A stretch of 55,805 nt of DNA. Source: Actinomycetes bacterium. GTDB lineage: Bacteria > Actinomycetota > Aquicultoria > Aquicultorales > Aquicultoraceae. The notes beneath the pieces are model-generated. The model made no database searches and was not told where the DNA came from. It worked only from the letters and a program-made list of their open reading frames with translations. The stretch is taken from assembly GCA_021794835.1 (NCBI GenBank), contig JAJYQA010000013.1, forward strand, positions 1-55,805. The letters are read 5' to 3'. Positions 13,802 to 52,198 of this stretch are shown here, in pieces. The number at the start of each line of letters is the position of its first letter. Position 1 is the first letter of the stretch. Made by a program: the position numbers and the translations under genes.

Positions 13802-15088
13802 ATGGTCAAATATCTAATAGCCGATATCCAGGCAATGGAAATCCTCGACTCAAGAGGTAACCCGACTATTGAGGTTGAGGTAATCCTAGAGTCGGACATA
13901 AGTGGAAGAGCTGCCGTTCCATCCGGCGCATCAACGGGAACCAGGGAAGCGCTGGAACTAAGAGATAAAGACCAGAAACGCTTTGGCGGCAAAGGTGTAA
14001 CCAAAGCAGTAACGAATGTAGAGGATATCATCAAGGCTCAATTGATAGGTAAAAGTGTTTTAAACCAATTAGAGATAGACAATATCCTCATTGAACTGGA
14101 CGGGACAGAGAACAAAAGCAATCTAGGTGCAAATGCCATTCTCGGCACCTCTATGGCTGTCTCAAGAGCCGCCGCCAACGAATCAGGAGTTCCCTTATAT
14201 CACTATCTCGGCGGCTCGCAAGGAACAACCCTGCCGGTTCCGATGATGAATGTCTTAAACGGTGGCGTCCATGCCGACAGCGGCATCTCTCTTCAGGAGT
14301 TTATGATTGTGCCGGTTGGGGCCAAAAACGTTGCCGAGGGAATAAGATTTTGTTCTGAAGTTTACCAGACTCTAAAGAAAATTTTAAAACAAGAAGGCCA
14401 AATTATCTCAGTTGGTGATGAGGGCGGTTTTGCCCCTCGCCTAAGTAAAAGCGAGGATGCCATTAAGAATATAGTTCGGGCTATAGAAGCTGCCGGCTAT
14501 GAGAAAGGAAAAGACTTGGCAATCGCTTTAGACCCGGCGGCAAGTGAGTTTTATGAAGATGGAATATACATTTTTGATGGCGAGAGAAAAACCAGCGAGC
14601 AGATGATCGATTATTATGAGAACCTTGTCAACAGATATCCGATTATTTCGATTGAAGACGGCCTGGCTGAGCAGGATTGGGATGGCTGGAAGATGCTAAC
14701 CGAAAGGCTGGGTCAAAGGATACAACTTGTTGGTGATGATATTTTTGTCACCAACCCCAAGATATTCATGGAAGGCATAAAACAGGGTATTGCAAACGCG
14801 ATTCTTATTAAACCCAACCAGATAGGCACTCTATCTGAGACTTTAGAGACCATTGAGCTGGCCCGTTTGTATAGATATAAGACGGTCTTATCCCACCGCT
14901 CGGGCGAAACAGAGGATACTTTTATTGCGGACTTTGCGGTTGCAACTAATATCGGCCAAATGAAAACAGGGGCACCTGCCCGCTCTGAAAGGGTGGCAAA
15001 GTATAATCAGCTTATGAGGATTGAAAAGAAACTAAAACATGCAAGCTTCTATCCTGATATAGCGTTGCTGGGAAATAGAAATATTTAG
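13802..15088 (+). CDS. eno: Enolase
   Basis: Converts 2-phosphoglycerate to phosphoenolpyruvate in glycolysis with two Mg2+ ions. 428 aa, full length. Conserved blocks are present: [14 protein letters not shown] at the N-terminus, [33 protein letters not shown], metal ligands in [23 protein letters not shown] and [11 protein letters not shown], the catalytic Lys in [10 protein letters not shown], and SHRSGETED. The start has AAAGGAG nine bases upstream. Enolase is a well-known target of fluoride with phosphate, and the gene stands next to a set of fluoride-riboswitch operons. Its 3' end overlaps the stop of the convergent 151-aa gene. Confidence 0.98.
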
Positions 15089-15540
15089 CCAATTACCGAT
15101 TTTTGCTCGTCCTCTCCTTCGGAGATATGTCCACCGCCCACAACAAATGATTCCAGGTTGAGGAGGAGTTTGGCAATGTGGGAGAACTTCTCTGCCACTT
15201 TCAATGCATCGGCCTCGTCGAGAATACCATAGCCCCTCAGACGCGAGGGCATTGTATTCTCGACGGCCGTCCAGGCTTCGGCAAATTTGCCATTGATGGT
15301 CCGGTCGGCCTTTACAAATCGCGCCTCAAGGCCGAAAAGTTCTTTCGCCTCTTCTATCTCCTTTTTCAATACACCCAACTGCTGCCGAACGATAGATGCT
15401 CTTCTTGCATCCAACGTTTCGTATTTTTTAAGGATTCCGTGATCCGAAGAGACATTGATCAACTGTTCGGTCTCATCGATAGCCGTCTCCAGACGCAGGA
15501 GCGTCGAAGTTATTGATCTTTTCTGGGCCTCATTAAGCAC
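15085..15540 (-). CDS. Hypothetical protein, helical, last gene of a fluoride-riboswitch unit
   Basis: No family recognised. About 151 aa, strongly helical and charged, with heptad-like stretches ([16 protein letters not shown] and [20 protein letters not shown]) that suggest a helical bundle or coiled coil. It has no signal peptide, membrane segment or Cys clusters. I prefer the GTG at 15540, two bases after the upstream stop and preceded by AGAGGTGG; the frame is open to a TTG at 15558. It follows the DUF6062 gene so closely that the two are surely co-translated. Confidence 0.7.
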
Positions 15541-15541
15541 T

Positions 15542-16228
15542 TTAACCACCTCTGCCAAAGTTACTGCTCTTGTAAACGGATAACTTAAGCAAAGCTTGCT
15601 GCCATGCGTTCATCTCTGCCCCCTTCGGCTCGTGAGAAAATTCAACACGGCTCTTTCTGATCGCCTCCTCAAGGGCAAAGCTCAGTTCCTGCAGCTTATC
15701 CACTTCAATAGAGACGATCGACTTCTTTATCTTTTTGCTACCGGCCGTAGCTATTGCCATCGCCCGGTGAGAGAGACACAAGCCGAAGCTACGTTTGTAT
15801 CGCTCCACAAAATCGGGGTCTGCTATATTGTAAACGAATATGCTGATGAGGTTAGCTTCGCGCTCATCAAGTGACTGACAGGCGGTACAACCTGCGGTAA
15901 CCGGAAACGATGCGACATCGCCTCTTTTGTGCCTCAAGGGATGTGACACATCCGTAAGGCTGCAAAGAACGCGCTCGGTCAACTCACGCGCAATGGTCGA
16001 GGCGCTAAGCAGGCGGCCGCTTTCTTTAACGGCTTCGATCAATCGCCTGGCATGCCGGCGGCAGAAAGTCTCGCCACGTGCGGCAAGCGCGTCCCTTGTC
16101 GCCCCATCACCGATACCTTCAAGAGCAAACCAGAAAAAGAACCGCTCCTCTGCCTCGTCAAGCAAAACACAGATGGGGCAGTTTTCTTCTTTAAACGCCA
16201 GCTCAAGTTCACCACTTATCCAGTCCAT
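15542..16228 (-). CDS. DUF6062-like Cys/His-rich protein
   Basis: Uncharacterised family with paired Cys motifs, here CPIC near the N-terminus, FCRRH, GCTAC in the middle and LCLSH later, suggesting two metal- or cluster-binding sites each made from CxxC plus CxxxH-type elements. About 228 aa. ATG 16228 (MDWISGELE) has TTGGAG at the right distance; the frame is open to 16258, but that would run into the riboswitch terminator. It is the first gene after an internal fluoride riboswitch, so I infer a function in fluoride stress. The family name is from memory of the motif pattern. Confidence 0.7.
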   Translation of the reverse strand: MDWISGELELAFKEENCPICVLLDEAEERFFFWFALEGIGDGATRDALAARGETFCRRHARRLIEAVKESGRLLSASTIARELTERVLCSLTDVSHPLRHKRGDVASFPVTAGCTACQSLDEREANLISIFVYNIADPDFVERYKRSFGLCLSHRAMAIATAGSKKIKKSIVSIEVDKLQELSFALEEAIRKSRVEFSHEPKGAEMNAWQQALLKLSVYKSSNFGRGG

Positions 16229-16255
16229 AGTTACTCCAATGGCCATTTTGGTAAA

Positions 16256-16326
16256 CAAAAACTCCTATGCCTTGCATAGAAGCTATTAGTTCTTTTTAGC
16301 GAACAATTATGGCGAGCTTCATCACC
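16256..16326 (-). ncRNA. Fluoride riboswitch 1 (crcB motif) with terminator, before DUF6062 gene
   Basis: The minus strand from 16326 reads GGTGATGAAGCTCGCC (first stem with the GATGAAGC pseudoknot strand), then ATAATTGTTCG...AAAGAACTAATAGCTTCTA, matching the fluoride aptamer core position by position. The partner of the pseudoknot (AGCTTC) is shared with a 9-bp terminator stem CTTCTATGC/GCATAGGAG, loop AAG, followed by TTTTTG. Fluoride binding should keep the terminator from forming. It begins only 24 bases after the stop of the HEAT-repeat gene, so it acts inside an operon or has a promoter within that gene. Confidence 0.9.
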
Positions 16327-16350
16327 TTGCCTTTTATGCTGCACAAGGAC

Positions 16351-16830
16351 CTACAAAAGGCTAGTATTGTTTTCCAGTACCTTTTGGATAATCTCTTTTA
16401 AAGTGCCATCAGTATAGCGGACAGCCGCCTTGAGAGCTAGTTTTGGTTTTTTACCTCCAATTATGCCAAGAGCTTTTGCTGAAGCAACGCGCACTATAAG
16501 ATAAGAATTTGGGGCTGAGAGTTTCTTTGCAAGAACATTGATGGCTTTACTGTCTCCGATTTTCCCTAGAGCTAAAGCGGCAGCTTCTTGAAGATATGGG
16601 TCTGGCGATGATGATAACACTTCAATCAATTGCGGCACTGCTGCCTTTTCTTTAATTTGGCCCAAAATCCAGGCTGCCCTCACGGCGGTCAGCGGCTCTG
16701 GATGCCTTAGTGCGGAGATAAGCTTTTCACTAAAACCTCTTTTATCAAAGCCCTCAAGGTCGGCCCCGCACTTAGGACAAACCTTTTCTTGAGCCTCACA
16801 TTCACCCCAACAAGAAGGGCAAAATATGAT
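16351..16830 (-). CDS. Zinc-ribbon HEAT-repeat protein
   Basis: The N-terminus has a short zinc ribbon (FCPSCWGECEAQEKVCPKCG, four paired Cys). The rest is a run of HEAT / PBS-lyase-like helical repeats: TAVRAAWILGQIKEKAAVPQ, then PYLQEAAALALGKIGDSKAI, then VRVASAKALGIIGGKK. Such proteins are scaffolds for protein contacts; the partner is unknown. The start is probably ATG 16830 (MIIFCPSC), with an in-frame ATG at 16848 directly after the MFS stop. Third gene behind fluoride riboswitch 2. Confidence 0.75.
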   Translation of the reverse strand: MIFCPSCWGECEAQEKVCPKCGADLEGFDKRGFSEKLISALRHPEPLTAVRAAWILGQIKEKAAVPQLIEVLSSSPDPYLQEAAALALGKIGDSKAINVLAKKLSAPNSYLIVRVASAKALGIIGGKKPKLALKAAVRYTDGTLKEIIQKVLENNTSLL

Positions 16831-16848
16831 CATTGCCAACTCCCACAC

Positions 16849-18117
16849 CTATATATCGGCTTCAGGCAACCCTTCAATTTCATGCGGCAGCCTCTTCCTG
16901 CCGTCGCCCGGAATCAAAAGGATAAAAAGAATCAATGCTAACAGCGATATGACGCTTCCAAAGAAAAACGGCGCGCTCGGGTTTATCTTATCCCAGAGAA
17001 AACCGGCGATAAGACTTGCGGGCAGAAGCGCGATGCCGAGAGCCAGATTTAAAAAGCCGTAGGCCGTTCCTCGCAAATTCGCCGGGACAATATCGGCGGT
17101 AAAAGCCTTAAAGATACCTTCTGTAAATGCGTAATACAGGCCATAAGCGGCAAATAGAAGCCAGACGGCAAAGGGGCTTTTAACTAAAGCAAAGCCCAGA
17201 TAAACCAGGGAGAATATTAAGTACCCGGCAATAATTACCGTTTTTCTTCCAATACGGTCGGAAAGCGAGCCGATGGGTGTTGCGGCAACGGCATAAATCA
17301 TACTAAAAACGAAATAAACAAGCGGGATGAGGCCAATGGTAATCCCAACGTTTCTTGCTCTTAAGATAAGGAAAGCATCGCTTGAGTTACCGATGGTAAA
17401 CACCAGTACTACCAATAAAAACAGTTTAAATGATCTATTGAAAGGCTTGAGGCTGAGTTTTATACTCGTGGGTTTAATTGTCCTTGCTTTCTCTTTTACA
17501 AATAAGGCAAGAACGGCGACCCCAATAGATGCCGGGATGATTGCCAGGCTAAAGTATACCCTAAAGTTATTATGGAGAAGCGGCAATACCGCAAAAGCAA
17601 ATAAAGGTCCAAAGGCAGCACCTAAAGTGTCCATACCTCGGTGGAGTCCGAATGACCTACCATATTCTTCTTTGCGGGTTGAATCTGCTATTAGAGCATC
17701 CCTCGGAGAGGTTCTAACACCTTTTCCAGACCTATCTACAAATCGGGCAATTAACACCTCCCACCAAACAAAAGACAGGGCAAGTATCGGTTTTCCAAGT
17801 GCTGCAAGCCCATATCCTATAACGGTAAGTTTCTTTCGCCCACGAAGTCGGTCTGAGAGCCAACCAGAGAAGACTTTAAGGATGCTTGCGGTTGATTCGG
17901 CAATGCCTTCAACAAGACCAACGATGGCAACCGGCGCCCCAAGAATTGTCGTTAGAAATATCGGAATTAGCGGATAGATCATCTCGGTGGAGATATCTGT
18001 AAAAAGAGAAGTTAGTCCAAGAAAGAAAACATTTCTTGAGAAGCCAAAGATTTTTTTATTTGTTGGTTGCCGCGCTTGTTCTGAGCTGAAGATCTTTTTA
18101 TCAGTTCTTGATCGCAT
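16849..18117 (-). CDS. MFS transporter in a fluoride-riboswitch operon
   Basis: Major facilitator superfamily permease, 422 aa, 12 predicted helices. N-terminal signature SLFTDISTEMIYPLIPIF; motif A in GWLSDRLRGRKKL and again in GSLSDRIGRKTV of the second half; a conserved loop RSGKGVRTSPRDALIADS. The substrate is not known; relatives are annotated as general efflux permeases. It follows the dynamin-like gene by 14 bases and leads directly into the HEAT gene, forming one transcription unit behind fluoride riboswitch 2. Possible roles are export of a toxic by-product or of an anion (inference). Confidence 0.85.
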   Translation of the reverse strand: MRSRTDKKIFSSEQARQPTNKKIFGFSRNVFFLGLTSLFTDISTEMIYPLIPIFLTTILGAPVAIVGLVEGIAESTASILKVFSGWLSDRLRGRKKLTVIGYGLAALGKPILALSFVWWEVLIARFVDRSGKGVRTSPRDALIADSTRKEEYGRSFGLHRGMDTLGAAFGPLFAFAVLPLLHNNFRVYFSLAIIPASIGVAVLALFVKEKARTIKPTSIKLSLKPFNRSFKLFLLVVLVFTIGNSSDAFLILRARNVGITIGLIPLVYFVFSMIYAVAATPIGSLSDRIGRKTVIIAGYLIFSLVYLGFALVKSPFAVWLLFAAYGLYYAFTEGIFKAFTADIVPANLRGTAYGFLNLALGIALLPASLIAGFLWDKINPSAPFFFGSVISLLALILFILLIPGDGRKRLPHEIEGLPEADI

Positions 18118-18131
18118 TTCTACCTCTGGTA

Positions 18132-19892
18132 CTATCCAATTTTATTTACATAAGAGGTTAACTCCAGCTCGATTCTCTCAATTCTTTCCTTGTAGGATTC
18201 AAGTTCAAGCTTTCTTTTCTGTATCTCAACCTCATTTTTCTGCCGATATTCAAGACCTCTTGTAACGGCCGACTCTATGCTAGATACCATCTCCGTTACA
18301 CGCTCATCGAGCATTCCTTTTAATGCAAGCAGGCTGTCGTCCAGCCTTGCATAAAGATCGCCCCGAATGCGCCCGCAATGCATATCAAAATACCTTATCA
18401 ATTTCTCTTTCGCATCTGCATACATCACTTTTGCGGCAAATACCTTGGGAAGTATACTCTTAGCGGGAGCGGCGAGTAGCTCTATGCTGGTTGATGCTTC
18501 TTTAGACATGTAATAGAACCACTTGCTATCAAGTAGCATAACCGTGCCAACGATCTGCGAAAGTGAAAGGCCAAATATATCGGATGCTTTATCAACGATT
18601 TCTTGAGCGATACCGTTGGTCTCGTCGATAAGTCGCTTTGCAATATACTCAAAACCGGCAGAGACTTTTTTCTCCTCTTCGCTTCTCCAACGAGTAAATA
18701 TAGAAAGGATAATATTTTTAACTGCGTTATCTAGGACATCTGAAATTTGCGCCTTTGGTCCGGCCTTCGCCTTTTCAAGGGCTTCATCAAGCTCTTTAAT
18801 TGCCTCCGGCAGCTTCTCTTTTTTTAAGCCCTCCGTGTCTTCATCATACTGTTTGATTAACTCACCGAGCTGGCCTTTCATTAGATAGTGTGCATCAAGC
18901 CGCTTGCGCTCGATTTGCTCGACATACTTTTTGAAATCCCCTAACTGTTTTTCGACCAAATCGATAGGGGCTTCAAGCGATTTAAGCTCAAGTTCGATAT
19001 GTCGCAGGATGTTGTTTGTAACCTGCAGGCCGCGATTAATCGCAACGGTTAATATAAGCAGACCCTTCTCTTTAAGCAAAAACTCTGAAAGCTCACGCTC
19101 AAATTCGGGTAGGTTGCTTTGAAGAAGCATCTCTTGGTTGCCACTCTGCCTGGCTTGAAGAGCCAGCCTTGCCGAAAGCGGTATCAGGGTAACACTGCCG
19201 CCCAACGTCTGCTCTAGAACTTTTCTGCTAAATTCCAGGGACTCCTTTCGCTCGCTCTCGGATAAGTAGTCAATCTTATTTTGGATAAAGAAGATTTTAT
19301 CTATATACTCTTTAATATCGATAAGATATGCGAGCTCGGCCTTGCTTATCGGTTGGTCGGAAGAGACCAGAAATATAACGGCATCGGCTTCAGGCAGATA
19401 GTCGTAGGAAACCTCGGTGTTGTGTTCGTAGATCGAGCCGACACCCGGAGTATCAACCAATATCACACCTTCATGAAGGTAGTTAGAGGGATACTTTGCG
19501 ACAACTTTCTTAACACCTTTTTCATTGTTGGGATTACTACGCTCTGTCACATAATCGTTGAGCATTTCAAGAGATATCGTCTTTCTCTGGCCATTTTCAA
19601 AAATGACCTCTGCTGAAGGAGTATCCCCGTAGATTAGTTCGGTTATAATTGAGGTAAGCGGGACTACTGCCACCGGTAGTGCGGCTTCGCCAAGTATCGC
19701 ATTAATAAACGATGTTTTACCCCGTTTAAATTCACCCATAACCACAAGGTTAAACTTGTTATCGGTAAGCTTTTCAATCGCATATTCGAGCATATTGCTA
19801 TTGTTGGGCGACTCATTTTGGTTAAGGCTTGCCTTAAGCTCACCTAAAGTCATGAGTATCTCTGTTCTTGCTTCTGCATAATTAATCGACAT
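18132..19892 (-). CDS. Bacterial dynamin-like GTPase
   Basis: Large GTPase of the dynamin family, which binds and remodels or repairs membranes. G1 is GEFKRGKTSFINA near residue 55, the switch Thr lies in VVPLTSIITE, G3 is DTPGVGS, G4 is QNKIDYLS. The middle and C-terminal regions are long helices with coiled-coil character; a mildly hydrophobic patch (LSQIVGTVMLLDSKWFYYMS) may be the membrane paddle. About 586 aa. The start is ATG 19892 (MSINYAEAR), with GGGGTGAT just upstream; the frame is open to a GTG at 19901. First gene behind fluoride riboswitch 2, which points to membrane maintenance under fluoride (inference). Confidence 0.88.
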   Translation of the reverse strand: MSINYAEARTEILMTLGELKASLNQNESPNNSNMLEYAIEKLTDNKFNLVVMGEFKRGKTSFINAILGEAALPVAVVPLTSIITELIYGDTPSAEVIFENGQRKTISLEMLNDYVTERSNPNNEKGVKKVVAKYPSNYLHEGVILVDTPGVGSIYEHNTEVSYDYLPEADAVIFLVSSDQPISKAELAYLIDIKEYIDKIFFIQNKIDYLSESERKESLEFSRKVLEQTLGGSVTLIPLSARLALQARQSGNQEMLLQSNLPEFERELSEFLLKEKGLLILTVAINRGLQVTNNILRHIELELKSLEAPIDLVEKQLGDFKKYVEQIERKRLDAHYLMKGQLGELIKQYDEDTEGLKKEKLPEAIKELDEALEKAKAGPKAQISDVLDNAVKNIILSIFTRWRSEEEKKVSAGFEYIAKRLIDETNGIAQEIVDKASDIFGLSLSQIVGTVMLLDSKWFYYMSKEASTSIELLAAPAKSILPKVFAAKVMYADAKEKLIRYFDMHCGRIRGDLYARLDDSLLALKGMLDERVTEMVSSIESAVTRGLEYRQKNEVEIQKRKLELESYKERIERIELELTSYVNKIG

Positions 19893-19903
19893 ATAAATCA
19901 CCC

Positions 19904-19976
19904 CATAAAATAATAGCCCCCACGCAAATTCGTAGGAGCTATTAGCATTAAAGCGATTTATGCGAGCCCCATCGCC
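19904..19976 (-). ncRNA. Fluoride riboswitch 2 with terminator, before dynamin-like gene
   Basis: The minus strand from 19976 reads GGCGATGGGGCTCGC, ATAAATCGCTTTAATGC, then TAATAGCTCCTACG, the fluoride aptamer pattern. The last part also forms the 5' arm of a 12-bp terminator stem with two G-U pairs, ATAGCTCCTACG with CGTGGGGGCTAT, followed by TATTTT. A TATACT at 19995-20000 is the likely -10 box; I see no good -35. The dynamin-like start codon follows 12 bases after the element. Confidence 0.9.
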
Positions 19977-20040
19977 TCATATTTACTTATTTCAAGTATA
20001 ACAGAAATTTTAACTCAGTCCTATACGTTCTAAACTGCTG

Positions 20041-22203
20041 TTACAAAAGCAAACGCTGGACAACCAAAACAAGTACCAGACCAATTAGAACATATGCTGC
20101 ATAAACGTTTATGCTTCCGGCATGCATTTTGGCCAATGTCACAGCTACCGATTGAATGAAACTGGTGATTGGTTTGAAGATCAACCGATCAATAATATGT
20201 ACCTCTTTTCGCCCGTTCTTTATTGCGGTTCTAAAATGTCCGGCTACCGTTTCTTTCGTATCTTCAATTGTCGAGGGATGGAAAACCGCATTAAAAATAA
20301 CCCGCACAGGGTTTGAAAAACCCGTAGCTGTATAGGTCATTTCGGGCAGAAGACGCCGAATCCCGCCATCCCAGGCCGCCGCCCGCCTTACCTTTCTAGC
20401 CCTGGTCAAAACTTTTACTAAGATAAATGTTCCACCCAGCAGGAACAGCAACACTATAAACGTATACGAGGTTGACATAGCAAAAACCACCGGATTTTTC
20501 TCCAGGCCCCGGTGTAGGATTACCAGACCGCGACCAGGAAGATAACTACGGCCCACCTGCGCACCAAGATCGTGAAACTCTGAAACAAACGCCCCGCCGA
20601 ATTTCGGATCTCCCTTATCTACCGTGAAAAACGGCGGCACCAGCTCATCGGCCACTTTCTCATGCACCAGGGGTGCTACGGTTTTATCCAGCACAGGAAC
20701 GACGTAGGTCGGGAGGATTCCAAAAAGAAGACAACTGAGGGCCAGAATCCCCATAGGGATAATCATGGACCTCCTAACTTCGCCCACTTTCTTTACTCTC
20801 TTCGACCTGCCCATACCCAAGAAACTCATCGCAAACGCCTTAACGAACGTGGTAACAGCCAAAGCGGCGGTCAAAGCGAGAGCCGCTCCACTCAGGGCAA
20901 AAACGATCTTCTCGCCCGCCGAATGGATAGCCGAGCTTTGAAGCATTGTCTGTAGAGTCAACCATTCACTGACGAAACCGTTGAAAGGCGGCAGAGCGGC
21001 GATGGACAGCGAACCCGCTAGAAAGAAAAGCGCCGTCCAGGGCATTATTTTAATCAATCCTCCTAAACGGTCCATATCGCGCGTGCCGACAGCATAATCA
21101 ACCGAGCCGGCACCGAGAAAGAGAAGCGACTTGTAAAGGGAGTGATTTATCAAATGGTATAGTGCCGCGATAAAGGCAATGCCTGCTAAGACTGGAAGCC
21201 CTGAGGCTGCAAATACAAACCCCGCGCCAAGTCCAGCGGTTATAATTCCCATGTTTTCGATGGAGCTGTGGGCCAGCATTTTTTTCATGTCGTTTTCGGT
21301 TGCCGCATAAAGAATCCCCACCAAAGCCGAAATACTGCCGATGATCAAAACAATAAGACCCGGTCCAACCTGGCTAACCGGAAGAAGATCGGCGTTTACC
21401 CTCGTAATACCGTAAATTCCAAGGTTTAAAACAACCCCCGACAAGAGCGCGGATACATTTCCGGGAGCGACGGGATGGGCTCGGGGAAGCCACGTACTGC
21501 TCGGCACCAGGCCGGCTTTAACACCGAAGCCAAAAAATGAGAGCAGAAAAACAGCCCAGCGGGCGACTTCGCCTAAACCCCCGGCAGAAGCTCTCAGCGC
21601 CGCAAAGTCAAGACTTCCCGACGCTTTCGCCATGATCAGAAAGGCAAGAATAACCATAATGGTACCCGCCTCGCTCATGGCCAGCATTAGAAAACCCGAA
21701 CGTGTTGTTTCTTCATGCTCGTGTTCATAGTTAACAAGCAAATACGAAAAGATCGACATTACTTCCCAGGCGATTAGAAAAGACAGAATATCGCCAGAGA
21801 TAAGAACCAGAACAATAGACGCAAAAAGTAAATAGTAAAAGATACTGAAAGTTTTCAAGTTATAGCGGTTAAGGTATCTTTTTAAATACCCCGCTGAAAA
21901 GATCGAAACCGGTAAAAATACTAATCCCGTTATGAAAACAAAAAGCGCCGATAGGCGGTCTATCTTAAAGGTCAGCGTCCCCAGGAACGGCAACGTCCAG
22001 AGTTCAGTTTGGACGGAATGGCCGGAGAGGAGAACCTCTCCACCAACGAGTAAAACGGAGACAGAAGCTATAGAGGCTACCAGGGATAAACCAAACGGGT
22101 TCATACGATTTGAAAGCAACGCCGCCAGGATAATACCAATGCCGCATAGCGATAGAAAAACAATAATACCATTTATAACAACAGCATTACTCGCTTCAAC
22201 CAT
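20041..22203 (-). CDS. NuoL/HyfB-like antiporter subunit of the Ehr-type complex
   Basis: Large membrane subunit of the Mrp-antiporter/complex I family, expected to move protons or Na+. 720 aa. The key charged residues are kept: Glu147 in LIAWEVMS and Lys229 in GFGVKAGLVP, plus the NHSLYKSLLFLGAG and AALPPFNGFVSEW blocks. The C-terminus has the HyfB-type extension ending in membrane helices, with MTYTATGFSNPVRVIF. ATG 22203 follows the small-subunit stop by four bases. Last gene of the six-gene operon; no terminator is evident between it and fluoride riboswitch 2. Confidence 0.88.
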   Translation of the reverse strand: MVEASNAVVINGIIVFLSLCGIGIILAALLSNRMNPFGLSLVASIASVSVLLVGGEVLLSGHSVQTELWTLPFLGTLTFKIDRLSALFVFITGLVFLPVSIFSAGYLKRYLNRYNLKTFSIFYYLLFASIVLVLISGDILSFLIAWEVMSIFSYLLVNYEHEHEETTRSGFLMLAMSEAGTIMVILAFLIMAKASGSLDFAALRASAGGLGEVARWAVFLLSFFGFGVKAGLVPSSTWLPRAHPVAPGNVSALLSGVVLNLGIYGITRVNADLLPVSQVGPGLIVLIIGSISALVGILYAATENDMKKMLAHSSIENMGIITAGLGAGFVFAASGLPVLAGIAFIAALYHLINHSLYKSLLFLGAGSVDYAVGTRDMDRLGGLIKIMPWTALFFLAGSLSIAALPPFNGFVSEWLTLQTMLQSSAIHSAGEKIVFALSGAALALTAALAVTTFVKAFAMSFLGMGRSKRVKKVGEVRRSMIIPMGILALSCLLFGILPTYVVPVLDKTVAPLVHEKVADELVPPFFTVDKGDPKFGGAFVSEFHDLGAQVGRSYLPGRGLVILHRGLEKNPVVFAMSTSYTFIVLLFLLGGTFILVKVLTRARKVRRAAAWDGGIRRLLPEMTYTATGFSNPVRVIFNAVFHPSTIEDTKETVAGHFRTAIKNGRKEVHIIDRLIFKPITSFIQSVAVTLAKMHAGSINVYAAYVLIGLVLVLVVQRLLL

Positions 22204-22207
22204 ATTT

Positions 22208-22957
22208 CTAACCCCTAACCTCAGATGATGTAAGTAAAGCGGATGATTTTCTTTTAACCGCTAAAAGTAGCCCGTGGATAATTGCCAGCGGGGGCGGAGG
22301 GCATCCCGGCACCGCAACGTCTACCGGAATTAGCTCAGAAACACCGGCGTCGGACATAAAGCTTGGGCCAAATATCCCCCCAGAAAGGGCACACGCACCG
22401 ACCGCCATAACCAATTTAGGCGTCGGCATTGCATCATACGCTTTTTTTAGCGGCAACCGCATATGATCGGTAACCGGACCTGCTACCAGCAACACGTCGG
22501 CTTCCCTCGGGGTTGGCGTTGCAAAAAAACCAAGGCGGTGCATATTATAATATGGCTTGTTTAACTGCTCAATTTCGCTTATGCATGCCCCGCAGGCACC
22601 TCCATCAACAAACCTTATATTGATAGAGCGATTAAAGGCACTTCCCAATCCCCGATTGGCCCCGCTATCTTTTGTGTTAGCCGCCCATTCGTATCCATAA
22701 TCCCAACCCATGGGACTCTGGGAGCCACGTTTGCAACGAAAACAGTGGATACAGTAATTATAATCAACGGTGAGCTGGTTGCCTGACCGTTCAATCGCAC
22801 CCGTCGGGCAATTAAAAACAAGCTCTTGAACTTCTTTCTCAGTCCCTTTTGCTGCAGTAGGCAGCCCAGGGGAGACCCCAGAGGCTGTCTCCATCTTCCT
22901 GGGATACTGGGTTGTTTTTATTCCAGTTCTAAGTCCCTTAATGACCCATTTACTCAC
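22208..22957 (-). CDS. NuoB/HyfI-like small subunit fused to a half ferredoxin
   Basis: 249 aa in two parts. Residues 45-78 are a reduced ferredoxin: Cys50 in NCPTGAI and CIHCFRC (Cys69, 72, 75). In a normal two-cluster ferredoxin these four Cys bind one [4Fe-4S] cluster, while the ligands for the other are absent here. Residues 115-235 are the NuoB-like domain with all four ligands of the proximal cluster: CGAC (122, 125), GACALSGG (189) and VPGCPPPP (219). It thus keeps an electron wire of two clusters leading to the large subunit. The start is a GTG with GGAG upstream. No separate ferredoxin-like subunit is present. Confidence 0.88.
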   Translation of the reverse strand: MSKWVIKGLRTGIKTTQYPRKMETASGVSPGLPTAAKGTEKEVQELVFNCPTGAIERSGNQLTVDYNYCIHCFRCKRGSQSPMGWDYGYEWAANTKDSGANRGLGSAFNRSINIRFVDGGACGACISEIEQLNKPYYNMHRLGFFATPTPREADVLLVAGPVTDHMRLPLKKAYDAMPTPKLVMAVGACALSGGIFGPSFMSDAGVSELIPVDVAVPGCPPPPLAIIHGLLLAVKRKSSALLTSSEVRG

Positions 22958-23011
22958 ACTAATCTATCTCCTAGATTTATAGTCTTCAATCTATAACTCC
23001 TCAATCTATCC

Positions 23012-24616
23012 CTATCGATCGGATTCGGCATTTGAAAGACCAAAGGTTGCCATAATTATAGGAAAATCCTGAAATGCAAAATTCTCCGCAGCGAGATGAA
23101 ATCCATGCCAGTTACTAAAAGACGGTGTAGTCAGCCGGTAGCGCAGCACCCGACCATCCTCTCCCACTCTTATCCAGTGGAATGAGGCACCACGGGGCGC
23201 CTCCACCCACCCGAGAGCTTCTCCGGGAGCAATTCGAAACGACTTAGCATTTACCGAACCCGGGGGAAGAGATGAGGCAACCTGGTTGATAATATTTACA
23301 GACTGCTCTGCTTCAGCAAACAAAACCCGGAGGCGGGCATAGCCGTCCCCTTCCTCCTCACCCGGCACGGTGAAGTCCAATTTTTCGTATCCAGAATAAG
23401 GCAATACTTTGCGTATATCTCTGAGCAGACCCGATGCGCGTGCGACTGGGCCGACCAGCCCGTGTGAAACAGCGTCCTCCAATGAGACAGCCCCAACTTC
23501 TTCAAGGCGGTCGAGGAAGCTGCTTGAGAAATAAAGCAGCTTCTTAAGCTTGTTTAGCTCAACCATTAAGCCGCGAAGATTCTTAGCAAGCATACCAATT
23601 GCATCATCGGCTAGATCGATCGATAGGCCACTGAGTATATTTAGGCCAAACAGGTAGCGGTGACCGGTTAACACACCAGAAAGGCGAAGCAATTCTTCTT
23701 CTAAAATACTTGCCTGACTGGTTGCCACGGCAAAAGCGGTAGAGCTGCAAATGCCCGCAATGGCGCCAATGTGGTGGCGCAGCCGTTCCAGCTCAGCCAG
23801 AACTATGCGGAGAGCTTTAGCGCGGGGTGGTACTTCTATACCGGAAATATTCTCTACGGCTTTACATAAAGCAAGTGAGTGGGCGAATGCCGAAGTCCCG
23901 GAAAAACGCTCGGCTAAAAGAATAACATGCTCTACAGCATTTCCTTCGGCTATTTTTTCAATCCCCCGGTATTTATAAAAGAAACGGGGGATAATTCTTA
24001 TTACGTCCTCCCCGACGGTTTCAAGAAGAAAATGGGCAGACTCAGCAAAATCCGAATACACCGGACCGATGGGCATCATGAAGGCGCCGGGTGACTGAAC
24101 AATTCTCAGCGGTCGCCAATCCGGGTCAACCTCGCGATGAATATAGGGATTTGATGGGTCAAAATCGGCCCGCATAGGATTTATGCCCTCCGGCCACTCT
24201 TCATGAAGTACAAAATCGCCTAAACGGGGATGCCCTTCAAAAACAAGGCCGAAGAGGTCTTCGATCTCCCTCTCATGCCAGTCGACGGCATGTATCAAAT
24301 TACTAATGCTGGGAACCGTAGTTGTCGAATTGGAAATCCGATAGGAAACACATATAAGTCCATTTCCAAAGCCGCCGTAAAAGATATATGTTAGCAACTG
24401 CTCGGAGGCCAGATCTTCAACAACCAGACTGGCAAAGCTATAGTCCAGCTCAGAGAAAAGCCAGTTACAAACATCCGCCACAATACTTTTATCGCATTCC
24501 ATATGGCAGATAAATCTGTCCTGTTTGCATCTTACCTTAATCTTGCCGGGCCAGCGATTTGCGCTGATCTCAGATAAATTCAGCCATTCGGTAGCTTTAT
24601 TTAAAGACTGTACCAT
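23012..24616 (-). CDS. NuoCD/HyfG-like large subunit lacking all NiFe ligands (Ehr type)
   Basis: Residues 1-165 match NuoC (DWHEREIEDLFGLVFEGHP) and 170-534 match NuoD/hydrogenase large subunit. In [NiFe] hydrogenases the metal is held by CxxC near RxCGxCS and by CxxC near the C-terminus. Here the first reads RFSGTSAFAH (Ser239, Ser242) and the second FGLSNAESDR (Ser528, Glu531), so all four Cys are gone while surrounding residues are kept. The protein therefore cannot hold a NiFe centre and belongs with energy-converting hydrogenase-related (Ehr) proteins of unknown substrate. The C-terminus runs to the natural end with no cleavable tail. ATG 24616 has GGGGAGGTG upstream. Confidence 0.9.
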   Translation of the reverse strand: MVQSLNKATEWLNLSEISANRWPGKIKVRCKQDRFICHMECDKSIVADVCNWLFSELDYSFASLVVEDLASEQLLTYIFYGGFGNGLICVSYRISNSTTTVPSISNLIHAVDWHEREIEDLFGLVFEGHPRLGDFVLHEEWPEGINPMRADFDPSNPYIHREVDPDWRPLRIVQSPGAFMMPIGPVYSDFAESAHFLLETVGEDVIRIIPRFFYKYRGIEKIAEGNAVEHVILLAERFSGTSAFAHSLALCKAVENISGIEVPPRAKALRIVLAELERLRHHIGAIAGICSSTAFAVATSQASILEEELLRLSGVLTGHRYLFGLNILSGLSIDLADDAIGMLAKNLRGLMVELNKLKKLLYFSSSFLDRLEEVGAVSLEDAVSHGLVGPVARASGLLRDIRKVLPYSGYEKLDFTVPGEEEGDGYARLRVLFAEAEQSVNIINQVASSLPPGSVNAKSFRIAPGEALGWVEAPRGASFHWIRVGEDGRVLRYRLTTPSFSNWHGFHLAAENFAFQDFPIIMATFGLSNAESDR

Positions 24617-24622
24617 GAGCAA

Positions 24623-26068
24623 TCACCTCCCCAGTAAAATGGACGCAAGGTGCACGAGTTTATTGAACGGCCCCGGCAAGAACAGACCAAGTAAAACAAT
24701 AGGAGCCCCGGCTAAAAGCAGGGCTGTAATATTTGATGCTCTTAAAGGTATCCCTTTTGAGCCTGGCTCGGGTCTTCCAAACACCATGCGGTTAATATGA
24801 TACATAACTCCCCAGAAAGCAATAACAATGAAAAAGGCCAGGAGACCGGAGGCAATATACTGGCCGCTGGTAAGCCCGGCTTTTAAAATTGAAAACTCAC
24901 TTAAAAAGACTGCAAACGGCGGCGCTCCGGCAATAGCCAAACCTGCAACTGCAAGTGAGACAGCAGATACCGGGGATGTTCGGATAAGACCCCTTACCGA
25001 AGCAATATCTTGATTTCCGGTAGCCATTAGAGAGCTTCCAGTAGCAAAAAAAGCAAAGGACTTCGCGAGAGCATGGCTTACAATCTGGAGTGTGGCCGCA
25101 TACCAGGCCGCAGGGCCACCAATACCGGCGGCAACCAGAATTATGCCCATATGCTCAATAGTAGAAAAAGCAAAAAGTCTTTTGAGATCTTTCACTTGAA
25201 TTATTAAAAATGCTGCTACCCCAACAGAAATAAGGCCAAAAACAATAAACCATACCCCTGCGTAGTTGCCTGCAGCTCCCTGGAGAATGGGCTGCATTCT
25301 TAGTATGACATAAAGAACGGTAGTACTCTCCGCAATAGATAGCAGTGCGCAAACGGGTGCCGGCGCCTGGCTGTAGGCATCGGGCAGCCACGTATGAAAA
25401 GGCACTAGCCCCGCTTTTGTGCCAAGACCGATTAAAATAAAGATAAATGCGGTTTTAAGAATGTCACCAGGGATACCTGGCGATAATTTAACCAGCTCCG
25501 CCCAGGTAAAAGGCCCATGTCCAACAGTATTTAACCCCCAATAGAGAATTAATACCCCAAGAAGGGCAAAGGCCGCCCCCATGGAGGTAAGAATAATATA
25601 CTTCCAGGCGGCCTCAAGAGACTCGGAGGTATTGTCAAAAGCAACTAAAAAAACCGATGAAACAGTGGTAAGTCCGACCGCAATCCAAACGAGAGCGATA
25701 TTCGATAACATCGGTATTGCCAGCATAGAAAAAAGAAAAAGATTGTATAGAGCATAGTAGCGACGTATTTTATACGGGTTGTTCACCGCAACCCTTTTTT
25801 CAACATATCCCCAGGAGAAAATAGAAGCCGTCAACCCGACAAAAGCTACCAAAAGCAAAATTATTGCCCCAAGACTATCGCACGCGACCCAATTTTTCAA
25901 AGCCACAACTTCTGCCGACTTAATAGCGACAAAGGCTACCCGTAATGATAGAAGGAATATAGCCAGGGTACCGATGTTTGTTATAGCCGGAGCTAATTTT
26001 TTCCCAACAGGGATTAACGACAGACCGGCGGCTAATAAAGCTATAACAAGAATGATAATTAGCTCCAT
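24623..26068 (-). CDS. NuoN/HyfF-like antiporter subunit of the Ehr-type complex
   Basis: Second antiporter-type membrane subunit, 481 aa. The TM7 Lys is present in GLGTKAGLVPFHTWLPDAY and the discontinuous-helix region APVCALLS follows. In TM5 the stretch WIAVGLTTVSS has Gly132 where relatives normally carry the Glu of WxAxExTT; the missing Glu could impair ion translocation in this subunit. Other blocks (STIEHMGIILVAAG, SHALAKSFAFFATG, GAPPFAVFLSEFS) are normal. ATG follows the HyfE-like stop by six bases. Fourth-from-last in the operon order C-E-F-G-I-B. Confidence 0.87.
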   Translation of the reverse strand: MELIIILVIALLAAGLSLIPVGKKLAPAITNIGTLAIFLLSLRVAFVAIKSAEVVALKNWVACDSLGAIILLLVAFVGLTASIFSWGYVEKRVAVNNPYKIRRYYALYNLFLFSMLAIPMLSNIALVWIAVGLTTVSSVFLVAFDNTSESLEAAWKYIILTSMGAAFALLGVLILYWGLNTVGHGPFTWAELVKLSPGIPGDILKTAFIFILIGLGTKAGLVPFHTWLPDAYSQAPAPVCALLSIAESTTVLYVILRMQPILQGAAGNYAGVWFIVFGLISVGVAAFLIIQVKDLKRLFAFSTIEHMGIILVAAGIGGPAAWYAATLQIVSHALAKSFAFFATGSSLMATGNQDIASVRGLIRTSPVSAVSLAVAGLAIAGAPPFAVFLSEFSILKAGLTSGQYIASGLLAFFIVIAFWGVMYHINRMVFGRPEPGSKGIPLRASNITALLLAGAPIVLLGLFLPGPFNKLVHLASILLGR

Positions 26069-26074
26069 GAATGC

Positions 26075-26758
26075 TTATTCCTCCCTCAAAGAGACCATCT
26101 TGCCCACAGCCGTTGTCCCTACACGTTCGTGTATTCTTCTGGTTAACAAACCCATAACGAGGGCTATGATCAGCACATCGAAAGCCGCCGCCAGCTCAGC
26201 GATAAGAGGCAGGCTCGAAGCGATAGAAATCCCGGCAAAAAACGCTCCATTTTCCATCGAAAGAATTCCAATAACCTGAGGTACTGCTTCGCGCCTAACT
26301 GTAACTACGTAGGCGCCTATAAGAAGCCCGGCCATGCCTATGGGCAGATTAAATTTTATGGTAGGATCGCTCGCAAAGCTTAGAAGGGGACTCGAAACAA
26401 AATAAACTATGATAGTAAGCACCATGGCGATTAATAATGACGAGGGGATGTTTAACGCCTGTGATATCTCGCGACGGGCGTAGACCTCCCGATCAATGGT
26501 GCGGCGTAGAAGCCAGGTAATTAAAACCGCTTTGACCACAAGGGTAATCCCTGCTACAGCAATCAGATGGTTCGATTCGTACTGGTAGCCCAAAACAAAC
26601 GCAGAGCTGGCTAGCAAAACAGATTGAAGTGCAAACAGGTTCAAGTAAGCAAGCACCTGGCGCATTGCAACCATCCCAAATGCGGAAAGCAAAAACAACC
26701 CGCCGGCCAGCGCATCCAACTTAGCAAAAATGGAAAGTGTCGTATTATGATCTAACAT
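26075..26758 (-). CDS. HyfE-like membrane subunit
   Basis: About 227 aa, several membrane helices, with the NuoK-like half in its C-terminal part (GILSMENGAFFAGISIASS, carrying a membrane Glu). ATG 26758 (MLDHNTTLS) has TAGGAGGG upstream. The reading frame is open further upstream to 27055, but that part overlaps the HyfC-like gene on the same strand and is not coding. It links the antiporter subunits to the NuoH-like subunit in the membrane arm. Confidence 0.83.
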   Translation of the reverse strand: MLDHNTTLSIFAKLDALAGGLFLLSAFGMVAMRQVLAYLNLFALQSVLLASSAFVLGYQYESNHLIAVAGITLVVKAVLITWLLRRTIDREVYARREISQALNIPSSLLIAMVLTIIVYFVSSPLLSFASDPTIKFNLPIGMAGLLIGAYVVTVRREAVPQVIGILSMENGAFFAGISIASSLPLIAELAAAFDVLIIALVMGLLTRRIHERVGTTAVGKMVSLREE

Positions 26759-26787
26759 AAACCCTCCTATGCGCTCCTCAAGCCCTC

Positions 26788-27738
26788 TTACATCTCTAGA
26801 AGCCTGGTAATCATAGCCGCCATGGAAGTAATAAAGGCAGCACCAAGAAATTCGGTTATTCGGAAAAGTCTCAATTTGGCAAGCGACGACTCGATAACTA
26901 CAAGAACTAGTATAAAGCCGAACATTTTCACCAAAATAAGAGGTATGGCCAAAAGAACATCTGACAGCGCCTCCGTTTGTGCAAGCCCCCATGGAGTTAC
27001 AAGAACATTTAGAAAAATGCATAATAGAACAAAAAACTTCATAGCGCCGCCCCATTTCATTAGAGCCGCAGCCCGCCCTGAATATTCTAGACCCTTTGAC
27101 TCATCAATCATTGCCAGTTCAAAATGACCGGAAGGATTATCAACGGGAATGCGACCTGACTCGGCAATAATCAACATGAGGAAAGCCAACATCAGAAGTA
27201 TATGCGACGGATCAAAAAAATTTGCCAGCGGTGTTACCCATTGCTTTTGGACAATGTAGGGAATCGTGGAACCGGCTATAAAAGACACCGTAAAGAAAAC
27301 TATCATAAAAACGGGTTCGGCGAGAAAGCCAACCATCCGGGTCCGGCTGGCCCCCACCGGTCCATACGGATTTGCCGTATCCACTGCGGCTAGGGTAGCA
27401 AAAAATCCCCCCAGCGCCAGGATAAAGCCGCCACCAAGCATGTCCCCCATAAAAGCAAAGAAGAGCGGATACCCGGTAAGAACCGGAATAAGAAGCGTTA
27501 CAAAAATCGGTGTTACAAAAACTATATAAGGCGTAACTCTAAATATCCAGGAGCTCTGCTCAGAGACAACCTCATCTTTATGGAAAAGCTTCCATAAATC
27601 GCGATAAGGCTGGAATATGCTTGGACCCCGTTTAGATTGAATTATCTCTTTCAGTTTATTAAGGACACCCTTAATAAGCGGCGCAAATGTCATTACCACC
27701 AGTACTTGGATTATATTAAAAACAATTCTGTCAACCAT
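26788..27738 (-). CDS. NuoH/HyfC-like membrane subunit
   Basis: First gene of the complex operon, 316 aa, about eight helices. NuoH-family landmarks: FQPYRDLWKLFHKDE near residue 45, GFFATLAAVDTANPYGPVGA with SRTRMVGFLAEPVF, IIAESGRIPVDNPSGHFELA, and DESKGLEYSGRAAALMKWG. In related complexes this subunit couples the redox module to the antiporter subunits. ATG 27738 has GGGAGG upstream. About 107 bases separate it from the terminator of fluoride riboswitch 3. Confidence 0.9.
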   Translation of the reverse strand: MVDRIVFNIIQVLVVMTFAPLIKGVLNKLKEIIQSKRGPSIFQPYRDLWKLFHKDEVVSEQSSWIFRVTPYIVFVTPIFVTLLIPVLTGYPLFFAFMGDMLGGGFILALGGFFATLAAVDTANPYGPVGASRTRMVGFLAEPVFMIVFFTVSFIAGSTIPYIVQKQWVTPLANFFDPSHILLMLAFLMLIIAESGRIPVDNPSGHFELAMIDESKGLEYSGRAAALMKWGGAMKFFVLLCIFLNVLVTPWGLAQTEALSDVLLAIPLILVKMFGFILVLVVIESSLAKLRLFRITEFLGAAFITSMAAMITRLLEM

Positions 27739-27845
27739 GGCATACCTCCCTGGCCGCCTTGTGCTAATGTTGGAACTACTAAGAGTATGGACTATTCTTT
27801 AATTTTCAAGCACCTGCCCATAAATAAGTTTCTAAAATTTTACAC

Positions 27846-27914
27846 AAAAATAGCTCCTACCTATAAGGGTAGGAGCTATTAGCACTCTGATGCATATAGG
27901 CGAGCTCCATCGCC
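27846..27914 (-). ncRNA. Fluoride riboswitch 3 with terminator, before the Ehr-type operon
   Basis: The minus strand from 27914 reads GGCGATGGAGCTCGCC, TATATGCATCAGAGTGC, TAATAGCTCCTACC: the fluoride aptamer with complete first stem and pseudoknot strands. The end pairs into a perfect 12-bp terminator (ATAGCTCCTACC, loop CTTATA, GGTAGGAGCTAT) with TTTTTG. A good promoter lies just upstream (27940-27968). The only genes in this direction are the six subunits of the hydrogenase-related complex. Confidence 0.93.
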
Positions 27915-27939
27915 ATAATCTATTTACAACTAATTTTAT

Positions 27940-27968
27940 ATCTTAGCAAGGTAAAGATTACTTGTCAA
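27940..27968 (-). promoter_or_regulatory. Promoter of the Ehr-type operon
   Basis: On the minus strand, TTGACA (27963-27968), 17-base spacer, TAAGAT (27940-27945). It would start transcription around 27933, about 20 bases before the riboswitch. The same boxes and spacing occur before guaB3. Confidence 0.7.
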
Positions 27969-28105: not shown

Positions 28106-28134
28106 TGACTTCACCGCATAACCCAAGTAAACTC
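28106..28134 (+). promoter_or_regulatory. crcB promoter
   Basis: TTGACT (28106-28111), 17-base spacer, TAAACT (28129-28134), immediately upstream of fluoride riboswitch 4. The promoter is divergent from that of the Ehr-type operon. Confidence 0.6.
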
Positions 28135-28142
28135 ATTTTTTA

Positions 28143-28214
28143 AGCGATGGGGCTCGCTCTATGGCCGTTAGATCGGATGATGGCTTCTGCCAATTGAGGT
28201 AGAAGCATTTTTTT
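28143..28214 (+). ncRNA. Fluoride riboswitch 4 with terminator, before crcB
   Basis: Reads AGCGATGGGGCTCGCT, CTATGGCCGTTAGATCGG, ATGATGGCTTCTGCC, a clear fluoride aptamer. Its last part forms a 9-bp terminator stem (GCTTCTGCC/GGTAGAAGC, loop AATTGA) followed by A and seven T. The gene behind it, crcB, is the classic target of this RNA, which supports the identification of the other three copies. Confidence 0.96.
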
Positions 28215-28239: not shown

Positions 28240-28617
28240 TTGTTCATAAGGCTTCTCTATGTAGGAATAGGTGGTTTCTTGGGTGCGATAGCAAGATACC
28301 TAATCGGCGGATGGATTATGGGTTCTGGCCGCTTTGTTTTCCCTCTGGGAACATTTATAATCAACATATCCGGTTCTTTTTTGATAGGGCTATTTTTTGC
28401 TTTTGCCGTTGATCGCTACGGCCTAGACGGCTTCTGGCGACCGTTTTTTACAATCGGTTTTCTAGGTGCCTATACCACTTTCTCAACATTTAGTTTGGAA
28501 ACACTAAATCTCGTTGAGAACGGCAGTTTCTTTTTAGCTACCGCAAATGTGCTGGCAAGCGTCTTATTCTCTCTGGTCGGCACTTTCGCAGGTATCTTAA
28601 TTGGAAGGAGTATTTAG
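28240..28617 (+). CDS. crcB: CrcB/Fluc fluoride channel
   Basis: Small membrane protein that lets fluoride leave the cytoplasm; family members act as antiparallel homodimers. 125 aa, four helices. Signatures: GIGGFLGAIARYLIGG at the N-terminus, PLGTFIINISGSFLIG with the conserved Asn, and GFLGAYTTFSTFSLE with the conserved Phe/Thr box. A stop codon lies directly upstream in frame, so the TTG at 28240, next to AAGGGGTGA, is the start. Only one crcB is seen. It is followed after six bases by the DUF190 gene. Confidence 0.95.
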   Translation: MFIRLLYVGIGGFLGAIARYLIGGWIMGSGRFVFPLGTFIINISGSFLIGLFFAFAVDRYGLDGFWRPFFTIGFLGAYTTFSTFSLETLNLVENGSFFLATANVLASVLFSLVGTFAGILIGRSI

Positions 28618-28623
28618 GGGGAT

Positions 28624-28971
28624 ATGAAATCAACCGCTTCGGGAAAGCTAGTTAGAATATTTGTCGGGGAGTCCGATCAGTGGCATCGCAGACCGCTTTA
28701 TACCGCAATTGTCGAGCGTGCCCGCGAAATGGGCCTGTCAGGAGCAACTGTTATCCGGGGTGTTGAGGGATTTGGCGCACACAGTAGAATCCATACCCTG
28801 CGCATCCTCCGCCTCTCTGAGGACCTTCCTATTATTATAGAAATTGTTGACTGTGAGGATAGGATAAACAAGTTTTTGCCTGTCCTTGACGAGATGGTTG
28901 CGGAAGGCTTGGTAACTATCGAAGATGTCGAGATACTAATATACCGGCACAGGTTCGGTGAGGAAATCTAA
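28624..28971 (+). CDS. DUF190 PII-like protein
   Basis: 115-aa cytoplasmic protein of the DUF190 family, which has a PII-like fold and often follows crcB. Visible family features: LVRIFVGESDQWHRRPLY at the N-terminus, GLSGATVIRGVEGFGAHSRI, and PIIIEIVDCEDRI. A ligand-responsive control of the channel has been proposed for such pairs but is not shown here. Same transcription unit as crcB behind fluoride riboswitch 4. It ends six bases before the convergent aroF stop. Confidence 0.9.
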   Translation: MKSTASGKLVRIFVGESDQWHRRPLYTAIVERAREMGLSGATVIRGVEGFGAHSRIHTLRILRLSEDLPIIIEIVDCEDRINKFLPVLDEMVAEGLVTIEDVEILIYRHRFGEEI

Positions 28972-51798: not shown

Positions 51799-51947
51799 GG
51801 ATTCTCCCTTCAGTAACAATAAAACGCCTCTTGAGATATACAACGGCTAATTATATGGTAAGTTGCAAAAACCAATATAACAAACGAAGTTAAAAGGGGA
51901 CAAAATAAGGAATTGCTGCATGTAGATTTAATAATGCTTTTCTTTTA

Positions 51948-52136
51948 CCACTCTGGCATCTCTTTATCCCGACGGTCACCCTCCGGATTTGTAGGTGCCA
52001 TTACGACCGTGGCCTGCCGAGAGGCATCCGCCGAACTGCTAAAAACCGTTTACTGGTGGTTTTTAAGCTCCTCGATTAACCTCTCCCTCGTCAACTGCCC
52101 TTCCAAAGTACCTGGTAGGTAGGCAGTTCTGGCGCT
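51948..52136 (-). ncRNA. glmS ribozyme
   Basis: The minus strand holds the conserved core in order: AGCGCCAGAACTGCC with the cleavage site between A (52136) and G (52135), GGCAGTTGACGAGGGAGAGG then TTAATCGA, TTCGGCGGATGCCTCTCGGC, CACGGTCGTAATGGC, and GGAGGGTGACCGTCGGGATA then AAGAGATGCCAGAGTGG. It cleaves itself when glucosamine-6-phosphate binds, lowering glmS mRNA. About 150 bases separate it from glmS. Everything needed for the catalytic core appears present. Confidence 0.95.
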
Positions 52137-52198
52137 AATAATATTATCCCCTATTTAATTTTTATTCCCTTTTCAATACCTCTATATTATACCATAAG

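Follow-up and report, generated by a model that had tools for sequence, protein, structure and literature searches.

A fluoride-riboswitch-linked relative of group-4 [NiFe] hydrogenases without a NiFe site, with a probable role in ion homeostasis

Results and Discussion

The window analysed here is a stretch of 55,805 nucleotides from an Actinomycetes bacterium of the Aquicultoraceae (contig JAJYQA010000013.1 of assembly GCA_021794835.1), in which a fluoride riboswitch is followed by six genes for a membrane-bound complex resembling complex I and the energy-converting hydrogenases. That this complex is an Ehr-type, catalytically dead relative of the group-4 [NiFe] hydrogenases, and that it is regulated by fluoride, we regard as near certain. 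For its function we favour, with a probability of about 0.6, a fluoride-inducible translocation of H+/Na+ which would serve pH and ion-gradient homeostasis under hydrogen fluoride (HF) stress, and which is possibly redox-gated rather than redox-driven.

The riboswitch and its operon

Six complete, uninterrupted open reading frames occupy the minus strand after the riboswitch, from 27738 to 20041, in the order C-E-F-G-I-B (Table 1). Profile matches assign their products, in that order, to NuoH/HyfC, HyfE, HyfF, a large subunit fused from 30 kDa and 49 kDa parts, a ferredoxin-NuoB fusion and HyfB/NuoL. A sequence-only reading of the window had set a riboswitch ending at 27914 ahead of these genes, and this position does fall within an Rfam RF01734 match which passes the gathering threshold. 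The 3' strand of the aptamer also forms one side, the 5' one, of a terminator hairpin (13-bp stem) with U residues after it. Together with a promoter-like site, this overlap makes the leader read as a fluoride ON switch in which terminator and aptamer compete.

At E <= 0.001 the whole genome holds exactly four fluoride riboswitches, all of them inside 12 kb of this contig. Two reach the Rfam gathering threshold (36.5 and 34.1 bits) and two fall below it (32.7 and 26.1), while terminators overlap all four aptamers according to fold statistics and a terminator scan. They serve crcB-DUF190, the complex, a dynamin-like GTPase with a major facilitator superfamily (MFS) transporter, and a DUF6062 gene.

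Conservation of the association

For comparison, 80 related loci were picked by protein similarity alone, and in all of those covering the operon the order C-E-F-G-I-B is retained. Sixty-two of the loci reach far enough upstream for the test, and in 56 of them a same-strand fluoride riboswitch adjoins the operon; three of these 56 stand ahead of a dynamin-like gene which heads the operon. The covariance model behind this count was built from 41 aptamers of the related loci, and its automatic structure took the pseudoknot as a helix, so that only its sequence detection was relied on. Because it was trained on aptamers of these same loci, Rfam was run as an independent check: RF01734 reached gathering in all nine loci of a non-random sample, including three missed by a pattern scan. 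The regular-expression scan had found riboswitches in only 29 loci, and the rise to 56 of 62 under the covariance model indicates that Acidobacteria had seemed to lack them only because the scan was not sensitive enough.

Most of the six loci without an adjoining riboswitch have particular circumstances. In L042 and L069 an enolase gene precedes C and the riboswitch lies upstream of the enolase, L045 starts inside an enolase ahead of the complex, L063 has a divergent riboswitch and L055 offers only 220 bases of upstream sequence (L071 is weighed below). Within the window's own phylum, 198 genomes were surveyed: each of the five best homologues follows a same-strand fluoride riboswitch at a distance of a few kb, and inspection of two lists found none of the other listed homologues near one. 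The sequence-only reading had made its case depend on conservation of the riboswitch-complex link in related genomes, and the link is kept across many phyla.

Loss of the NiFe site

In the alignment, the RxCGxC motif of the window's large subunit has become RFSGTS and the C-terminal DPCxxC has become GLSNAE, the chain ending at DR. The replaced ligands are Ser239, Ser242, Ser528 and Glu531 when counted from the ATG at 24616 (241, 244, 530 and 533 from an upstream TTG), and the neighbouring motif residues ER, FAHS, DFPI and DR are retained, so that residues and numbering agree with what had been read from the sequence alone. E. coli HyfG and HycE, in the same alignment, read RVCGIC and DPCYSC, with Cys at all four ligand positions. 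This is not a local accident, since none of the 81 large subunits (the 80 related loci and the window) keeps the NiFe ligands. All members end at DR and have no cleavable C-terminal extension, and the columns of the quinone-binding His and Tyr of NuoD hold A/T/S and G/A.

Read as annotated, the complex would be a working hydrogenase or formate hydrogenlyase; for this speak the family names and a fold match: the AlphaFold model of the large subunit (predicted local distance difference test 85.7) finds its best PDB match in HycE (7z0s_E, template-modelling score 0.90), followed by E. coli NuoCD. Such models confirm the folds, cluster distances being outside their reach. Against the annotation stand the absence of the ligands in 81 of 81 and of the C-terminal extension, and the six-gene operon contains no formate dehydrogenase, maturation protease or nickel genes. 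The ligand loss rules out an active hydrogenase, in line with the sequence-only reading, and we give the annotated activity virtually no chance.

Relationship to Ehr and other complexes

All fluoride-linked large subunits form one clade in the tree, with bootstrap/Shimodaira-Hasegawa-like approximate likelihood ratio test (SH-aLRT) support of 99/99. A support of 88/81 unites it with the NiFe-less complexes that have no riboswitch, and the intact group-4 enzymes, Hyf and NuoD fall outside this grouping. The riboswitch-free group is called Ehr here by its features, the tree being built without any named reference Ehr sequence. Its members from Methylocalor, Rhodococcus, Rhizobium and a genome of the window's own phylum carry B ahead of C and have no fluoride riboswitch; a search of four classic Ehr-type loci found none. 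The riboswitch-free Ehr loci compared (L110, L111, L113, L117, L119, L121 and L122) place B 5' of C-E-F and fall on a separate branch. Ehr complexes such as Geobacter ehrABCDLS, likened by description and not by sequence, share Hyf-like membrane and peripheral subunits and the lack of NiFe ligands. The earlier interpretation of the complex as Ehr-type is supported by its Hyf-like, NiFe-less character, but has to be qualified, since the fluoride-linked members form their own clade, with the order C-E-F-G-I-B and a ferredoxin module reduced to one cluster.

A second, divergent subtype, in which the gene order is unchanged, occurs on Mycobacterium branderi pJCM12687, on a Burkholderia multivorans plasmid and in Caballeronia sp. 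SBC1. Its riboswitches passed Rfam gathering in all four loci tested, and the neighbours on the M. branderi and B. multivorans plasmids include enolase, DUF190, pyrophosphatase and dynamin. L074 and L075 are neighbouring complexes, one of each subtype, on a single contig.

Other relatives delimit the complex further. Subunit homology is shared with E. coli Hyc and Hyf, from which it differs in lacking the four NiFe Cys, the C-terminal extension, one of the two HycF-type clusters, HyfD, HyfA and HyfJ. Complex I resembles it through NuoB/C/D/H/K/L/M-like parts and the E-x-D-R end found in NuoD; the operon, in contrast, has no NuoE/F/G/A/J, the quinone His/Tyr are absent and the N2-type ligands are eroded in about half of the clade. 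Mrp antiporters have no redox subunits, whereas the complex has conserved large and small subunits. To Mbs/Mbx, archaeal sulfur-reducing relatives with an altered NiFe site, the match (6u8y_L, 5.2e-28) is weaker than to HycE (1.2e-63).

An eroding electron chain and a largely preserved membrane arm

The ferredoxin part of I aligns with HycF (7z0s_F) and keeps one of its two cluster motifs, C50 with C69-x2-C72-x2-C75. Of 76 sequences, 75 have this single ferredoxin-type [4Fe-4S] motif in full; a member of the second subtype, L107, encodes the ferredoxin, again with the one cluster, in a gene of its own. The N2-type site is a different matter. All four of its Cys are present in the window and 36 others (37/77), while 40/77 lack at least one. 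Elsewhere N, D, S, H, Q, T, A or F stands at the fourth position; the second Cys is the one missing from a group of Planctomycetes. None of the four survives in L072 and L081, of the main subtype, or in L112 and M. branderi, of the second. Since the same substitutions recur in related genomes, sequencing error is unlikely. The intact or incomplete state requires at least eight changes on the tree, with total loss at three places, one of them an Ehr-like Allomeiothermus protein. This last locus, L121 on an Allomeiothermus silvanus plasmid, has B first, no riboswitch that we found and no N2-type Cys, so that N2-type loss also occurs outside the fluoride clade.

What is new here, as far as sequence comparison goes, is this repeated loss of N2-type ligands while one ferredoxin-type cluster stays almost everywhere. 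Members with three Cys may still bind an N2-type cluster; those with none cannot, to judge from their ligands, bind one in the usual way. Given this repetition, electrons cannot reach the old active site by the standard path in every member of the clade, and flow through N2, on this evidence, cannot be required for the clade as a whole. The "electron-driven" pump that had been proposed from the window alone consequently fails as a general description, about half of the clade having lost at least one N2-type Cys and two lineages all four.

The membrane arm, judged by its ion-path residues, is not decaying in the way the electron chain is. Equivalents of NuoM K234 and E407 are invariant in both F and B, as are those of NuoH E157, D213, E220 and E228 in C, across 62-71 main-subtype sequences (C of the second subtype has E or H in place of D213). 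Members without N2-type Cys retain the antiporter Lys and Glu residues.

Weighing the possible functions

Under the ion-homeostasis reading that we favour, fluoride would relieve the transcription terminator and the complex would be expressed; H+ (or Na+) would then move through the two antiporter-type subunits and the NuoH-like subunit. Such translocation would counter the acid load and the loss of ion gradients which follow HF entry, and a restored membrane potential would support fluoride expulsion by CrcB, which needs it. The energy could come from redox drive via the remaining clusters, in members like the window's, or the complex could act as a redox-gated antiporter. Assembly, ion translocation, its direction, its energy source and a benefit in fluoride are what we infer. 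Ion and pH homeostasis is the most economical function because fluoride, entering as HF, lowers the cytoplasmic pH and dissipates the proton-motive force that its export requires, and because Na+/H+ antiporters are, after the exporters, the next commonest riboswitch-controlled genes (PMC11139923). Also in its favour are the riboswitch with its terminator, the conserved link, the single clade, the retained ion-path residues, and partners in the islands that belong to fluoride defence.

Three observations weigh against this reading. One divergent member, L071, is clearly without a riboswitch nearby. More than 70 positions of the large subunit are invariant, and a pure antiporter would need no conserved peripheral arm; some chemistry or gating probably persists there. 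Lastly, the Glu of transmembrane helix 5 (TM5), kept in F in 53/65 and in B in 61/71, is missing from F in 12/65, including the window (Gly, codon GGA, region 25640-25700), and from B in 10/71, one Planctomycetes group lacking it in both.

How translocation would be powered divides the alternatives. A redox pump, in which electrons pass from reduced ferredoxin through the ferredoxin cluster and the N2-type cluster to an acceptor in the old pocket while the membrane arm pumps ions, suits the window itself, with its four N2-type Cys, its ferredoxin Cys and the invariance of the NuoH-like coupling residues; the related Mbx has, besides, been reported as a ferredoxin oxidoreductase (PMC6349859). 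We nevertheless consider it unlikely, given the N2-type erosion described above, which includes two fluoride-clade lineages without any of the ligands, the other residues at the complex I quinone positions, the lack, in the islands, of any conserved gene for an electron donor or acceptor, and hosts that span apparent anaerobes to mycobacteria. That erosion, set beside the nearly constant ferredoxin cluster, speaks instead for a redox-independent or redox-gated antiporter or ion conductor, Mrp-like in effect, with the peripheral arm as a gate or sensor holding one [4Fe-4S] cluster. Antiporters are a known fluoride-riboswitch class, and the antiporter residues persist in members without N2. The strong conservation of large and coupling subunits, neither of which Mrp has, and the chance that three-Cys members still hold a cluster keep this at somewhat less than even odds in our estimation. 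Going further, to a branch of the superfamily which gave up redox catalysis and is now a fluoride-induced, non-redox-driven ion transporter forming a major and so far unrecognised part of bacterial fluoride tolerance, would be a tentative step, which we rate a little lower still.

Strict association with fluoride islands could also mean that fluoride or HF itself is what the complex handles, by transporting or scavenging it, or that it serves some other process damaged by fluoride and not connected with ion gradients. This appears improbable, as the island already holds a dedicated exporter, crcB, and the sequence suggests no anion site.

The fluoride island

Coordinates are collected in Table 1.

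Table 1. Elements of the fluoride island and of the operon for the complex, in window coordinates.
Feature	Position	Strand	Evidence or remarks
C: HyfC/NuoH-like membrane subunit, 316 amino acids (aa)	26788-27738	-	PF00146 3.9e-32; NuoH E157, D213, E220, E228 equivalents kept
E: HyfE-like membrane subunit, NuoK-like C-terminal part, 229 aa	26075-26764	-	NF008556 3.9e-19, under its cut-off
F: HyfF-like antiporter-type subunit, 481 aa	24623-26068	-	PF00361 6.4e-49; retains TM7 Lys and TM12 Glu; Gly in place of TM5 Glu
G: large subunit, 30 kDa + 49 kDa fusion, HyfG/NuoCD-like, 536 aa (ATG at 24616)	23012-24622	-	NiFe ligands all replaced
I: one-cluster ferredoxin (HycF-like) fused to NuoB/HycG-like small subunit, 249 aa	22208-22957	-	PF01058; four N2-type Cys present
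B: HyfB/NuoL-like antiporter-type subunit, 720 aa	20041-22203	-	PF00361 2.1e-53
Fluoride riboswitch aptamer 5' of the complex operon	27863-27923	-	RF01734, 36.5 bits (gathering 34), E 1.7e-6
Intrinsic terminator sharing the aptamer 3' strand	27849-27880	-	13-bp stem and U tract; -20.7 kcal/mol, z -6.35; terminator scan
Promoter-like site TTGACA-17-TAAGAT, TG before second hexamer	27940-27968	-	Consensus scan, 10/12 matches
Divergent fluoride riboswitch 5' of crcB	28134-28196	+	RF01734 26.1 bits, E 0.0041, below gathering; overlapping terminator
Third fluoride riboswitch and terminator, 5' of dynamin-like GTPase	19926-19985	-	RF01734 32.7 bits, below gathering; fold z -4.90
Fourth fluoride riboswitch, 5' of DUF6062 gene	16270-16335	-	RF01734 34.1 bits, passes gathering
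crcB/fluC fluoride channel	28240-28617	+	PF02537 5.8e-28
DUF190 protein after crcB	28624-28971	+	PF02641 4.2e-43
Dynamin-like GTPase	18132-19901	-	PF00350 3.2e-27
MFS transporter downstream of GTPase	16849-18117	-	PF07690
Zinc-ribbon/HEAT-repeat protein	16351-16848	-	PF13646
DUF6062 protein	15542-16258	-	PF19538 3.8e-12

Clustering of the neighbours of the related loci returned the dynamin-like GTPase (31), DUF190 (17), enolase (13), metallophosphoesterase (11), MFS (9), CrcB (7) and pyrophosphatase (5) as recurring families, and no recurring electron-donor module. The dynamin-like GTPase, which has its own fluoride riboswitch here, heads the complex operon in L026, L030 and L035. An enolase gene, the family inserted between riboswitch and complex in L042 and L069, lies on the plus strand beside the island (13802-15088). 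A small overlapping gene after the DUF6062 gene (15085-15558) has no Pfam match. Further along, an apparent membrane-bound H+-pyrophosphatase (47817-49862), judged from sequence without a family search, has no fluoride riboswitch, and a glmS ribozyme precedes glmS (51944-52147; RF00234, 96.9 bits).

Two trivial explanations were considered. A chance riboswitch match is ruled out by conservation and the overlapping terminator, and an isolated or decayed copy by six intact reading frames which are conserved over many phyla.

Implications

According to the sequence-only reading, fluoride-riboswitch surveys list genes annotated as formate hydrogenlyase, and this was borne out: the 2010 paper on the crcB motif lists formate hydrogen lyase genes (PMC2864571), and a 2024 review describes formate hydrogen lyase as a formate-oxidising fermentation enzyme (PMC11139923). 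Published regulons (crcB, CLC-F, antiporters, pyrophosphatase, enolase) share the aptamer and neighbour genes with the island and already include this name; the lists are silent on the absent NiFe site and the separate clade. In a search which did not extend to subscription papers, the 2012 survey among them, we found none linking the fluoride riboswitch with a hydrogenase, complex I, Ehr or dynamin. The function of Ehr complexes is described as unknown (PMC7894505, PMC6349859, PMC10284858, PMC4378227), and pH homeostasis has been proposed for one of them in an acidophile (PMC6688271).

With a NiFe-less complex behind a fluoride switch here and in dozens of unrelated bacteria, the 'formate hydrogenlyase' of the fluoride lists is probably this clade, a separate machine for fluoride tolerance, which suggests that such entries deserve re-reading. 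Natural variants which have lost N2 and kept the ion-path residues offer a probe of how much complex I-like machinery ion movement needs. Fluoride is, moreover, the first physiological handle on Ehr-type complexes, and so simple an inducer makes the question of their function testable.

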